Shown one piece after another: positions 813 through 24,503 of a stretch of 32,298 bases of DNA (within the stretch, counting starts at the first letter, position 1; each line of letters opens with the position of its first letter). The stretch is taken from the IMG/VR virus record IMGVR_UViG_3300020450_000060, positions 1-32,298 of that record, one strand, 5' to 3'. The notes beneath the pieces were generated by a model, which saw only the letters and a program-made list of their open reading frames with translations, was not told where the DNA came from and made no database searches. Both the position numbers and the translations under genes were made by a program. This DNA is from a virus.

Positions 813-886
813 TGGAGAGGTAGGAGAGAATCGAACTCTCGTAAATGGTTTTGCAGACCATCTCCTCACCACTCGGACACTACCTC
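813..886 (-). tRNA. tRNA-Cys (anticodon GCA), CCA encoded
   Basis: Complete cloverleaf on the minus strand. Acceptor stem GAGGTAG (886-880) pairs with CTACCTC (823-817); anticodon stem ATGGT/ACCAT encloses loop CTGCAAA, giving anticodon GCA; T-arm GAGAG-TTCGATT-CTCTC. The discriminator base is U, the cysteine identity base, and CCA is encoded at 815-813. It sits at the 3' end of a promoter-driven, GC-richer transcript (promoter 1137-1165). Cysteine is notable because this phage carries several Cys-rich proteins, but codon-supply arguments would need genome-wide codon counts. Confidence 0.95.
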
Positions 887-4861: not shown

Positions 4862-5053
4862 ATGGGAATATTAGTATTAGCAATCGCACTTTTTAGTGTA
4901 GATACAGAAGAATTTAGAACAACCGCAAATCAACAGATGAAAGATGGATATGAGTGGAATTATATAGGGAAAACAAAACCCTCTGGAGTTCCAGCCATAA
5001 CTATAAACCCACAAATGGGTGATGAGTATATTTTATTTAAGTTACAAAAATGA
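4862..5053 (+). CDS. 63-residue protein upstream of glutaredoxin
   Basis: Preceded by GAGG at 4850-4855. Apolar start (MGILVLAIALFSV) then a soluble part with 'MKDGYEWNYIGKTKPSGVPAI' near residues 27-47. Its end overlaps the glutaredoxin start by four bases (ATGA), so the two are co-translated. No recognised family. A small signal-anchored partner of the redoxin is possible but unsupported. Confidence 0.6.
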   Translation: MGILVLAIALFSVDTEEFRTTANQQMKDGYEWNYIGKTKPSGVPAITINPQMGDEYILFKLQK

Positions 5054-5271
5054 TATACACGATTTACACACAGAACTTATGTGGTTATTGTGATGCAGCT
5101 AAACTACTTATGAAAGAGTGTGGTATTCCATACAATGAGATATCTCTTGACAAAGACCAAGACGCAAAAAACCTAATGAAAGAAAAAGGTTTTAAAACAG
5201 TTCCACAAATATTTGATGGGGAACTACATATTGGTGGTTACACCGAGTTACGAACTTTCTTGACCAAATGA
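5050..5271 (+). CDS. grx: Glutaredoxin
   Basis: 73 residues, the usual size of small phage/bacterial glutaredoxins. Dithiol active site CGYC at residues 11-14, cis-proline in KTVPQIF (about 48-54) and the GGYTEL glutathione-side motif (about 61-66). Family members reduce disulfides with glutathione, notably in ribonucleotide reductase, and some carry Fe-S clusters. The 3' end runs 34 bases into the end of the convergent cytochrome b gene, an overlap of two real genes on opposite strands. Very confident in family; substrate unknown. Confidence 0.93.
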
Positions 5272-6488
5272 GGATTTTTTGGTTCTAATACAGGCGTGCT
5301 TATTCCTATGGGTAAAGGTTTCGTAGGTTCAAACTTTGGAAGTAAAGGTAATAACACACAGAAGTGGAAAAAGTAATATAGTGTACAAATTCTACTTGCC
5401 CAGACATACCAACCCTCAGCTGGCATAGCACCAAGATATCCTAATGCTATACAATCAACAAATAGTATCCAGAAAAATATTCTGTACAATGGTCTGAAGT
5501 TACTACTTCTTATTGGTTGTCTGTCTAGCCATGGTAACACAAACAATACTGCAATAGCACCAAACATTGCGATTACACCACCTAGCTTATCTGGCACAGC
5601 TCGTAGTATCGCATAAAAAGGTAGAAAATACCATTCAGGGACAATATGAGCTGGTGTTACCATAGGATTAGCTGGGATATAATTATCTGGATGACCCATA
5701 AAATTTGGAAAGAAAAATACTGCAGCTGCAAAGAACGTCAGAAATATTCCAAGTCCAAACAAATCTTTTATGGTGTAGTAAGGATGAAAAGGTATCGTAT
5801 CTTGTTTACCCTTAACATCTATACCTATTGGATTATTACTCCCAAACCTATGTAGAGCTACCAAGTGTAAAATTACTGTTCCTACTATGACAAATGGTAA
5901 CACAAAATGTAAACTAAAGAATCTGTTTAACAATGCGTTATCTACACTAAAACCACCCCATAACCATGTGACAAACTGTTCACCAATTAGAGGTATTGCT
6001 GAAAATAGATTTGTGATTACAGTTGCACCCCAAAAACTCATTTGACCCCACGGCAATACATATCCCATGAAAGCAGTTGCCATCATCAGGAGTAGTATTA
6101 GAACACCAAGAATCCACAGAAGTTCTCGTGGTGCTTTATACGAACCATAATATAATCCACGAAATATATGTATGTAAGTGACTATAAAAAAGAAACTAGC
6201 ACCATTCATGTGAATGTATCTTATCAACCAACCATGATTAACATCTCGCATGATTCTCTCTACAGAGTCAAATGCATAATCAACATGAGCAGTGTAATGC
6301 ATACTAAGAACTATACCAGTGATAATCATCACTACAAGTGATATACCAGCTAGAGAGCCAAAGTTCCAAAAATAATTTAGATTTTTTGGTGTTGGATATT
6401 CGTTTAGTTCGTGGTTAAGAAAACTGAATAGACCAAGCCTATGGTCTATCCAATTCACCACTGGATTCTTAAATTTCTTTTTAGCCAT
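5238..6488 (-). CDS. petB: Cytochrome b of the bc1 complex (complex III)
   Basis: 416 residues, full length for an alphaproteobacterial cytochrome b with eight membrane helices. Heme ligands are present as two pairs: H93 ([11 protein letters not shown]) with H107, and H194 with H208, both 14 apart as in bc1-type proteins. Quinol-oxidation site: [13 protein letters not shown] at 148-160 and PEWY at 284-287. Quinone-reduction site: H213, K241 and D242 (TIKD). The b6 and subunit IV parts are fused, so this is bc1, not b6f. No Rieske protein or cytochrome c1 gene is nearby, so it would have to assemble with host subunits. Base composition matches the phage. No clear Shine-Dalgarno; a 31-residue frame ends ten bases upstream. 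Confidence 0.97.
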
Positions 6489-6597: not shown

Positions 6598-6822
6598 TTA
6601 TTTTCCGTGATACTCTTTTATAGTTCTGTCATTCATTTGTTGAATGATTTGATTGTACTCTTTTTGATTACTAAAACCAAGACTTACCAATTCTCTGGCC
6701 ACTCGTCTATTTGCATTCATCTGCATACCAAACTGTATTTTTCTTAATACTTTTTTTAATGATTTATTTACTATCTCACACACATGGCAAGTTTCTTTAT
6801 AAATTGCTGTTGCAACCGACAT
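6598..6822 (-). CDS. 74-residue helical unknown protein
   Basis: MSVATAIYKETCHVCEIVNK... has a CHVC pair at residues 12-15, then a basic helical body. AAAGGA sits about ten bases before the ATG. It follows the late promoter at 6872-6879 and a strong hairpin, and heads the unit that contains cytochrome b. A metal- or redox-active role for CxxC is possible but unproven. Confidence 0.6.
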   Translation of the reverse strand: MSVATAIYKETCHVCEIVNKSLKKVLRKIQFGMQMNANRRVARELVSLGFSNQKEYNQIIQQMNDRTIKEYHGK

Positions 6823-7029: not shown

Positions 7030-7121
7030 AACACTCTCCTTTCGATTAGTTACCAAAAGTTAAGTGCGTTCCTTCCCCTTGATAGGTACTTCCGTCTATT
7101 TGAATAGATGAACGATACTAT

Positions 7122-9055: not shown

Positions 9056-9361
9056 CTAAACTGCAAAACTTTCTCCACAACCACACGATGCTGTTGCGTT
9101 TGGATTTATGACTTTTAAATAAGACCCACCTAATTCTGTAACATAATCTATCGTACAACCAACGACAAACATTTCTGCTATAGGGTCAAGGACTAAACAA
9201 TCATCATACGGCTCACTCCATTTTACATTTGGCCAATTTTTCTTGTAGTCCCAGACGTATTGAAAACCAGAGCAGCCACCACCATTGACTCCAAGAGTGA
9301 CATAATCATCTTTTGCAACACTACTCAAATAGTTTTTTGCATTTTCAGTAAGTGTAATCAT
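9056..9361 (-). CDS. A-type iron-sulfur carrier (IscA/ErpA/HesB family)
   Basis: 101 residues from ATG 9361, whose TGA-overlapping position (ATGA) couples it to the SufT-like gene; a GTG at 9367 would add two residues. The three conserved cysteines are present: GGGCSGFQY (C30) and SCGCGES (C93, C95). Members carry [4Fe-4S] or [2Fe-2S] clusters from scaffold to target proteins. Known in some marine phages; here paired with a second Fe-S targeting protein, which is rarer and suggests real cluster delivery. Confidence 0.9.
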   Translation of the reverse strand: MITLTENAKNYLSSVAKDDYVTLGVNGGGCSGFQYVWDYKKNWPNVKWSEPYDDCLVLDPIAEMFVVGCTIDYVTELGGSYLKVINPNATASCGCGESFAV

Positions 9362-9678
9362 ATCCACCCCATAGCCATTTTAGTTTCTTCGGGCACCATG
9401 TCCATAGTAAATGGTGGTTGGAAAGTACAGTTTGCAATACTTTCTTTTATACCCTCGACCATACCAGCTTTCTGTATGTCTTGATTTATCTCATCTGCCA
9501 TAGGACAAAATGCACTTGTAAGTGTGTGAGTAATTTTTACCACAGTATTGTCTTCTAGTATTTCTATGTCATATATCAAACCCAAATGTATTACAGAAAT
9601 ACTAGGCATCTCTGGGTCATAGACTTGTTCTAAGTTTTTGACAACCTGAGCCATAATTCTATTTCGTTCCTTATTCAT
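9358..9678 (-). CDS. MIP18/DUF59 (SufT/PaaD-like) Fe-S assembly protein
   Basis: 106 residues. Hallmark segment VYDPEMPSISVIHLGLIYDI (about residues 19-38), then ITHTLTSAFCPMADEI with the conserved reactive cysteine (about residue 58), and the C-terminal FQPPFTMDMVPEETK stretch of the family. These proteins help mature Fe-S enzymes in bacteria (SufT) and act in cytosolic Fe-S targeting in eukaryotes. Start at ATG 9678 with GGAG five bases before; an inner start at residue 9 is possible. Overlaps both neighbours. Confidence 0.85.
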   Translation of the reverse strand: MNKERNRIMAQVVKNLEQVYDPEMPSISVIHLGLIYDIEILEDNTVVKITHTLTSAFCPMADEINQDIQKAGMVEGIKESIANCTFQPPFTMDMVPEETKMAMGWI

Positions 9679-22616: not shown

Positions 22617-22829
22617 CTATATCGGTAAGGTTGCTGTTTTCTCCAGAAAGTTTAACTCTCTGGCGTTTGCCTCAATTTTCTCTTTGAGTCCTTTTGTAAT
22701 TAATCTATTTACTGAATCTGGTTCTAGGTCATTTTTTTCACAGTACCATAAAACAGCATCTATATGATTAATTTCTTTTTCTTTTGCTACTTTCTCTATT
22801 TCAAGTGAGAATGATTTAGGTGTTTGCAT
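22617..22829 (-). CDS. 33: Late transcription accessory protein gp33-like
   Basis: 70 residues: MQTPKSFSLEIEKVAKEKEI ... DAVLWYCEKNDLEPDSVNRL ... LREL-like ARELNFLEKTATLPI. In T4, gp33 is a 112-residue coactivator that bridges RNA polymerase and the sliding clamp for late transcription. The pattern 'DAVLxYCEExxLExxxVxxLI-x-LKEKIExxAxxLNxLxKxxTLPI' is one I recall as gp33 in marine T4-like phages. The many TATAAATA promoters require such a factor. Moderate confidence. Confidence 0.55.
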   Translation of the reverse strand: MQTPKSFSLEIEKVAKEKEINHIDAVLWYCEKNDLEPDSVNRLITKGLKEKIEANARELNFLEKTATLPI

Positions 22830-23217: not shown

Positions 23218-23545
23218 AAAGTAGTAGGTTATTCTGTTACTAGGAAACCTACTGAAACCCTATCCGATTATGCAGCTAGTGCAAAATCTTGAGGTGCAAA
23301 GTTATCGTTTGCATTTACTTTTTTGACCTATTAGGCAGTCAACCCACAATTCTCCGCTCGTCTATCTCTGCCAGTCGAACCTATTTCACCCCCATTATAA
23401 ACACACCAAACAGGCCTATTTGGAAAAGAGTTTATGTTTTATACTACACAACTAGTCTGAGGCCTTGACTCTCTGTGTTTATGGTGGAGGTGATGGGTAC
23501 TGCCCCCATGTCCTGCCCAGTATTCAACTCGAATCAACAAATTGT
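23218..23545 (-). ncRNA. ssrA: Circularly permuted (two-piece) tmRNA
   Basis: Acceptor piece comes first on the minus strand and ends CACCTCC-A-CCA (23492-23482); the coding piece begins GGGGGTG (23393-23387). The seven bases pair perfectly with one G-U, making the acceptor stem. Next to it AAATAGGTTCGACTGGCAG matches the tmRNA D-region. The 88-base intervening segment closes with an 8-bp stem (23398-23405 with 23474-23481) and would be cut out. The tag frame is at 23312-23268, followed by an 8-bp stem (AGTAGGTT/AACCTACT). The T-arm stem ATGGG/CCCAT encloses loop GGCAGTA instead of the usual TTCAANT. Rescues stalled ribosomes and tags their products for proteolysis. Ends of the mature pieces are approximate. 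Confidence 0.9.
23268..23312 (-). other. tmRNA proteolysis tag reading frame
   Basis: Resume codon GCA at 23312-23310, then AAC GAT AAC TTT GCA CCT CAA GAT and on to TAA at 23270-23268, giving the tag ANDNFAPQDFALAA. The start AND and end ALAA are the typical ends of bacterial tags; the latter is what ClpXP recognises. Confidence 0.92.
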
Positions 23546-23552
23546 AAGTATA

Positions 23553-23581
23553 TTTATATCATAATCCTTTTCAAATGTCAA
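23553..23581 (-). promoter_or_regulatory. Sigma70-like promoter of the tmRNA, overlapping a late box
   Basis: TTGACA (23581-23576), 17-base spacer, TATAAA (23558-23553). The -10 region also spells TATAAATA (23558-23551), the T4-type late box, so the tmRNA could be made both early and late. Confidence 0.75.
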
Positions 23582-23584
23582 GTG

Positions 23585-23839
23585 CTAAAGCTGAACTTTT
23601 GGAGTTTTTTCTGGTGGTTTTTGATTCATATATTTTATAAAGTTGTCCTCCCTAAAACAGTAAACCTTAGCTGGGCCATTAAATTCTCTTATTGCAATAT
23701 CTTCTATGTTTTTCATATTTATTTGTGCAATCGCTTGGCATTCCTCTACACTATGATACATTGTGTTTGTGAATACAAAGTGGTCTGCAGAACCATCAGC
23801 ATACAGATTCATTGATATTAGTACTAGTATCCATTTCAT
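23585..23839 (-). CDS. 84-residue secreted Cys protein
   Basis: The start used is ATG 23839 (MKWILVLISMNLYADGSADH), giving a clear short signal peptide; the longer frame from 23923 lies inside the exonuclease gene. The mature part has two cysteines (ECQA, YCFR) likely to form a disulfide in the periplasm. It ends four bases before the tmRNA promoter. Function unknown. Confidence 0.6.
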   Translation of the reverse strand: MKWILVLISMNLYADGSADHFVFTNTMYHSVEECQAIAQINMKNIEDIAIREFNGPAKVYCFREDNFIKYMNQKPPEKTPKVQL

Positions 23840-24503
23840 TTTTTTCTGTCCAATCTTTGATGGCATCTGATAACAAGGGTAAATAGTCTGTCTTATTTTT
23901 GACAAACTCTTGAACAATACCATCCTCTGTTACAACTAGAATTGCAACTTGTTCTATTGCTATACCAGTTCGTTCTTCAAACATCTCTGCATAGGCAGAA
24001 GCTTGAATATAGTAACTTTCGTTCCATTCATCGCTTCGTTCTTTTGATGAGGTCTTAAAGTCGATAATAGATAACTTTCCATCATACTCAGCGATACAAT
24101 CGACACGACCAGCTACCTTATATTTATCAGAATAGAGCCCTACCTCTTGTGCATGTACGTTATTCACTTTTGTCAACACTGATTCTCTAAGTTGATTGAA
24201 TAGAACATATGGTAAGAAATTTTTTTTGTGTTTTTCTTCATCAAAACTATTATTTATGTAATCCTCACACATATGATGAACATGAGTTCCACGAGTTGCT
24301 GCTTTACGTGCAACATAGTTTGCTACATCATCACCTACTCTTTTTCTCCACTCATGGAGTCCTTTTTTGTTTCTTACAGATAAAACTGTAGTGATTGATG
24401 GATAAAAATTACCCTCTGGCGTTTCATAGAGTCTGACGCCATCAGTTGTCTTTGCTTTTATCTCTGGTAGATTTATCTTCTTGTGGTTGTACATTTTTAT
24501 CAC
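23796..24503 (-). CDS. RecB/Cas4-like PD-(D/E)xK exonuclease
   Basis: 235 residues. Motifs: ATRGTHVHHMCEDYIN with the histidine/glutamate of motif I, AGRVDCIAEYDGK with the aspartate (about residue 132), LSIIDFKTSSK with D-x-K (about 147-153) and the QASAYAEMF motif (about 166-174). This is the RecB-type nuclease core as in phage exonucleases and MGME1. Likely 5'-3' or 3'-5' single-strand exonuclease for replication or recombination. A second start three codons in (MYNHKK) is possible. Confidence 0.8.
   Translation of the reverse strand: MIKMYNHKKINLPEIKAKTTDGVRLYETPEGNFYPSITTVLSVRNKKGLHEWRKRVGDDVANYVARKAATRGTHVHHMCEDYINNSFDEEKHKKNFLPYVLFNQLRESVLTKVNNVHAQEVGLYSDKYKVAGRVDCIAEYDGKLSIIDFKTSSKERSDEWNESYYIQASAYAEMFEERTGIAIEQVAILVVTEDGIVQEFVKNKTDYLPLLSDAIKDWTEKNEMDTSTNINESVC

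Follow-up and report, generated by a model that had tools for sequence, protein, structure and literature searches.

A predicted two-piece, alphaproteobacterial-type tmRNA in a T4-like phage and its marine viral relatives

The 32,298-nucleotide stretch of viral DNA analyzed here (the window) carries what is, judged by its sequence, a complete permuted tmRNA gene of the alphaproteobacterial type, a maintained gene and no relic. A tmRNA releases stalled ribosomes and marks their incomplete proteins for degradation. Very probably the phage encodes a working two-piece tmRNA (ssrA) of this alpha type. A gene of this kind is already described, as ssrA of Methylophilales phage Melnitz (Buchholz 2022, PMC9004378). 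New here are the evidence for covariation and for selection on the tag, a conserved promoter, a separate viral clade, an unannotated copy in phage HTVC008M, and the uncoupling of the gene from a glutamine riboswitch.

Two Rfam families match the minus strand in cmscan searches: alpha_tmRNA (RF01849) at 23585-23223, with 113.8 bits (E = 1.4e-30; curated cut-off 50 bits), and tmRNA_permuted (RF04321) at 23545-23268, with 112.8 bits (curated cut-off 47 bits). ARAGORN also calls a permuted tmRNA, with the tag ANDNFAPQDFALAA. The original prediction of a circularly permuted, phage-borne tmRNA, for which a covariance-model search had been proposed, is thereby confirmed, as is the tag. The acceptor piece precedes the coding piece, with the intervening segment between them (Table 1), so the two pieces are swapped as claimed. 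The acceptor stem, described beforehand as perfect, forms 7 of 7 pairs, including G3-U70, and is followed by an encoded ACCA. G3-U70 is the alanine identity pair. The tag frame contains a resume alanine, a hydrophobic/alanine end, and then a stop (ANDNFAPQDFALAA*). PK1 and the 3' pseudoknot are visible by eye in the window and its close relatives, with 56–76% pairing across the wider set in an imperfect alignment. About 40 positions of the alpha_tmRNA model, between the tag stop and the 3' pseudoknot, are absent from the window gene, whose score is far lower than the 211–290 bits of cellular alphaproteobacterial tmRNAs.

Table 1. Features of the tmRNA locus and of other window regions discussed in the text.
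Feature	Position in window	Strand	Evidence or context
-35 element TTGACA of tmRNA promoter	23576..23581	-	sequence and conservation
-10 element TATAAA, spacer 17 nt from -35	23553..23558	-	sequence and conservation
Acceptor piece: P2 strands, T arm, acceptor 3' strand CACCTCC, encoded ACCA	23482..23545	-	cmscan tmRNA_permuted and segmentation
Intervening segment, 88 nt, presumably excised on maturation	23394..23481	-	closing stem, fold
Coding piece: acceptor 5' strand GGGGGTG, D-loop-like region, PK1, tag frame, 3' pseudoknot	23223 (about)..23393	-	cmscan alpha_tmRNA
Tag reading frame ANDNFAPQDFALAA and stop TAA	23268..23312	-	ARAGORN
3' pseudoknot of coding piece: UAGG/CCUA and AGUAGGUU/AACCUACU	within 23223..23393	-	pair counts; alignment poor there
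gp33-like late-promoter transcription coactivator gene, downstream of tmRNA	22617..22829	-	identity to annotated phage ORFs
PD-(D/E)XK nuclease gene, upstream of tmRNA	23796..24503	-	Pfam PF12705
Glutamine riboswitch, 57.8 bits (cut-off 35)	7063-7116	-	upstream of 74-aa ORF (6598-6822) and cytochrome b
Cytochrome b of respiratory complex III, full-length	5238-6488	-	Pfam PF00033/PF00032

Viral relatives were collected as IMG/VR matches to the pattern AAATGCAAACGATAACTTTGC, in which ARAGORN then placed the tmRNAs; these matches are so numerous that the gene appears to be common in IMG/VR viruses. Over the 53 distinct viral sequences among the matches listed, pairing is complete (100%) in the acceptor stem and T arm; 3 of 7 acceptor-stem pairs and 4 of 5 T-arm pairs have changed in both partners, and G3-U70 is invariant (53/53). 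As a control, sliding the partners by 1–3 columns leaves only 33–66% pairing. P2a is 99% and P2b 87% paired in the same 53 sequences among the matches listed. P2c, PK1, and the 3' pseudoknot are weaker in this set (38–76% paired), partly owing to poor automatic alignment of these parts. The A-L-A-A end of the tag is kept in 42–43 of the 43 distinct viral tag DNAs among the matches listed, encoded by 3–4 synonymous forms per position, and this constancy over varying synonymous codons argues for selection on the peptide. The start of the tag lies within the pattern used to collect the relatives, so that the conservation of A-N-D-N-F-A is biased and this part carries no weight as evidence. That tmRNA occurs in only a few phages, as had been stated, overstates its rarity: the gene is common in marine T4-like phages and has already been published. 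A survey of 18,146 phage genomes found 133 unique tmRNA structures in 402 of them; 53 of the 133 were two-piece, 50 of these 53 came from marine or aquatic phages, and permuted tmRNA was present in 17 of 47 Melnitz-like contigs (Buchholz 2022, PMC9004378).

The tmRNA has its own predicted sigma70-type promoter. The pattern TTGACN-16/18-TATA[AT]A is found in 19/19 members of the window's viral tmRNA group, where 0.01 would be expected from shuffles, and it stands at the same distance in them, 38–39 nt before the T-arm GGAC. The strict pattern is absent upstream of all 15 cellular tmRNAs examined. A generic promoter scan of the region performs at chance level (6 found versus 7.4 expected), so that the promoter claim, which agrees with the original prediction, is carried by conservation and not by the scan.

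An 8-bp stem, formed by UAAACACA (23481-23474) and UGUGUUUA (23405-23398), closes the intervening segment, as had been predicted; the z-score of the folded segment, −2.24, is not strong alone. Closing stems of at least 8 bp at a near-fixed offset occur in 44 of the 54 distinct viral segments among the matches listed, against 0.43 expected, and spacer lengths among these matches range from 18 to 296 nt. One relative has a tmRNA 91–94% identical to the window's, yet its spacer is 22 nt long and stemless, which rules out the stem-closed spacer as an essential feature. A cellular tmRNA from a Sneathiella MAG, with a 9-bp stem, rules it out as a phage-only feature. Given the variable length and the stemless close relatives, the spacer has the look of a structurally closed insert that is tolerated but not essential.

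By its gene content the window is assigned to a T4-like myophage; it encodes a baseplate wedge, tail tube cap, tail tube, DNA end protector, gp32, RNase H, and PhoH. The 70-aa ORF downstream of the tmRNA is 58.6% identical over 70 aa to an HTVC008M ORF annotated as a putative late promoter transcription factor, 55.6% identical to its Melnitz counterpart, and 50.7% to that of Pelagibacter phage Mosig. We call it gp33-like because of its 51–59% identity to the so-annotated HTVC008M and Mosig ORFs. The nuclease upstream is 58% identical to that of Melnitz and 54% to that of HTVC008M. The order phoH, nuclease, tmRNA, gp33-like gene, gp32 is common to the IMG/VR relatives and Melnitz, and related marine phages that infect SAR11 and OM43 bacteria (Melnitz, Mosig, HTVC008M) keep the gene in the same slot. 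Searching the tmRNA DNA against 50,697 phage records with blastn returned four Melnitz records only (MZ577095-98), so HTVC008M and Mosig were reached via neighboring proteins. HTVC008M (NC_020484) carries a permuted tmRNA in this slot, unannotated in its record, at about 145103-145414 (2104-2415 of locus L311). Elsewhere in the window, a tRNA-Cys (GCA) gene lies at 813-886 (-).

In a tree of mature tmRNA pieces, with cyanobacterial and beta-type tmRNAs left out, the window, Melnitz, and other viral tmRNAs form one clade (17 rows, support 96/93), and the cellular alphaproteobacterial tmRNAs, those of SAR11 and SAR116 among them, fall into another (13 rows, support 96/95). The separation of the two clades argues against recent capture from any sampled host. 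The window tag differs from those of SAR116 cells (ANDNYAPVAAAA or ANDNYAEARLAA) and of SAR11 cells (ANQKFALAA and similar).

The host is likely SAR116, a placement that draws on the phage cytochrome b. This protein has His pairs at 93/107 and 194/208 and PEWY at 284, and it is 86% identical to the protein of SAR116 cells. It lies inside a viral clade of more than 30 IMG/VR contigs (32 rows, support 100/98), whose sister group consists of SAR116 AG-337-O15 and AH-287-L13 (100/94 for all 34 rows). SAR11 was set aside as host, as cytochrome b points to SAR116. The alphaproteobacterial host originally proposed is thus likely, but an alpha-type tmRNA alone does not identify the host: Melnitz carries one and infects OM43. 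SAR116 and related genomes carry their own permuted tmRNA, so the candidate host has the two-piece form that the original prediction called for, and 6 of the 7 genomes of SAR116 and its alphaproteobacterial kin encode SmpB.

Cytochrome b is the most unusual thing seen in the window and is probably more novel than the tmRNA. No close copy was found in isolate phages, the only match being one of 39% that lies at the edge of a record from a Helicobacter phage. Among the papers returned by full-text searches, none reports phage cytochrome b in its title or abstract. In a second, distant group of viral contigs, eight in number, cytochrome b is ~58% identical to the window's; these contigs also have a tmRNA ~2–4 kb from cytochrome b, and its predicted tag is unusually long, at ~22 aa (ANKRALGFADLTVGMSELRLAA type). 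At 9056-9678 (-) and 5050-5271 (+) the window also holds two iron-sulfur assembly genes, of Fe-S_biosyn and FeS_assembly_P type, and a glutaredoxin, which together with cytochrome b make a small redox set in one phage.

The simplest reading of these sequences is that the tmRNA would add ribosome rescue during infection. We infer its transcription, processing, charging, tagging, and benefit as follows. The host-like sigma70 promoter would yield a tmRNA precursor, from which host tRNA-processing enzymes would remove the stem-closed segment; the acceptor stem and P2 would then hold the acceptor and coding pieces together. The host's alanyl-tRNA synthetase would charge the RNA (G3-U70, ACCA), and host SmpB would bring it to ribosomes that have stalled because a message is broken or lacks a stop codon; such messages are expected to be abundant in infection. 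The ribosome would resume at GCA, add (A)ANDNFAPQDFALAA, and stop, and the LAA end would direct the product to destruction by host ClpXP-type proteases. Searches for SmpB in the window and 16 related viral records, some of them fragments, detected none, so the phage tmRNA would have to rely on its host for SmpB, alanyl-tRNA synthetase, processing enzymes, and proteases. The phage would gain rescue capacity and ribosomes would stay available; recycling of ribosomes stalled on degraded host messages is a plausible function.

A phage without SmpB would compete for that of its host, and the tRNA-like domain is the best conserved part of the RNA; both points would also suit a dominant inhibitor, one that binds SmpB of the host and so stops its trans-translation; such a role has been proposed in mycobacteriophage DS6A, whose tmRNA has the tRNA-like domain only (PMC4131195). 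Such an inhibitor, however, would not need the complete tag frame, stop, and A-L-A-A end that are under purifying selection here, unlike DS6A, and with the tag under selection we consider a DS6A-like role very unlikely. The strong conservation of this degradation end, and the difference between viral tags and those of sampled hosts, could alternatively mean that the phage tag serves to target particular proteins. That is quite improbable, as the analysis found no evidence for targeting and, to our knowledge, known tmRNAs have no selectivity for particular proteins beyond stalling.

A covariance score below those of cellular genes might instead indicate a decaying, recently captured host ssrA copy devoid of function, a reading that is hardly credible: it is contradicted by the compensatory changes, by selection on the tag, and by the conservation of both promoter and synteny, and the viral clade stands apart from the cellular alphaproteobacterial one. 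We give almost no credence to a rescue RNA controlled by a glutamine riboswitch, as proposed for Melnitz (Buchholz 2022, PMC9004378). The riboswitch of Melnitz starts 8 nt downstream of its tmRNA, and the window has a glutamine riboswitch too (Table 1), yet this nearest copy is 16 kb from the tmRNA; with none adjoining the gene, such control was rejected for the window. Glutamine riboswitches gave no match at 15 related loci, 14 of these with tmRNA, nor in 16 further viral records that carry cytochrome b and in some cases a tmRNA too. The Melnitz riboswitch, being 3' of the tmRNA, would more naturally serve as the leader of the next gene. The general form of the riboswitch-control idea for such tmRNAs is thus argued against.

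The phage two-piece tmRNA therefore reads as a gene that a viral lineage maintains in conserved synteny rather than as a stray host copy, and why phages want their own ribosome rescue becomes a question testable in cultured isolates (Melnitz, HTVC008M, Mosig). A broader idea, rather doubtful at present, is that marine T4-like phages keep a long-standing trans-translation RNA lineage of their own, equipped with a separate promoter, a tag specific to phages, and a spacer closed by a stem, and that the phage tag would replace the host tag on rescued proteins in infection, altering how or how fast they are degraded.

Compared with known systems, the window gene shares with cellular alphaproteobacterial tmRNAs (RF01849; SAR116, SAR11) the piece order, the G3-U70 acceptor stem, the T arm, the resume GCA, and a tag ending in alanines. 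It differs in its 88-nt stem-closed intervening segment (8–42 nt in sampled cells), its 14-aa tag (9–12 aa in SAR11/SAR116), the lack of part of the 3' region found in the cellular RNAs, and its place in a separate clade. The truncated tmRNA of DS6A is likewise a phage-borne tmRNA-like RNA, but it consists of the tRNA-like domain only, whereas the window tmRNA has a full tag reading frame. The HTVC008M copy scores lower (83.8 bits) and has a shorter tag, ANFNEYALAA (ARAGORN). Mosig (MT647606) has an annotated permuted alpha-type tmRNA between the nuclease and the gp33-like gene, as in the window, with a lower score (67.6 bits) and a shorter tag, GEDNFALAA (ARAGORN). The Melnitz ssrA is, like the window's, a permuted alpha-type tmRNA of a T4-like marine myophage, in the same slot and with the same promoter spacing. 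It is 79% identical in DNA over half of the query and encodes the tag ANDNYVPVDYALAA rather than ANDNFAPQDFALAA; Melnitz infects OM43 and has a glutamine riboswitch directly after the tmRNA, whereas the window, with SAR116 as its likely host, has none there.
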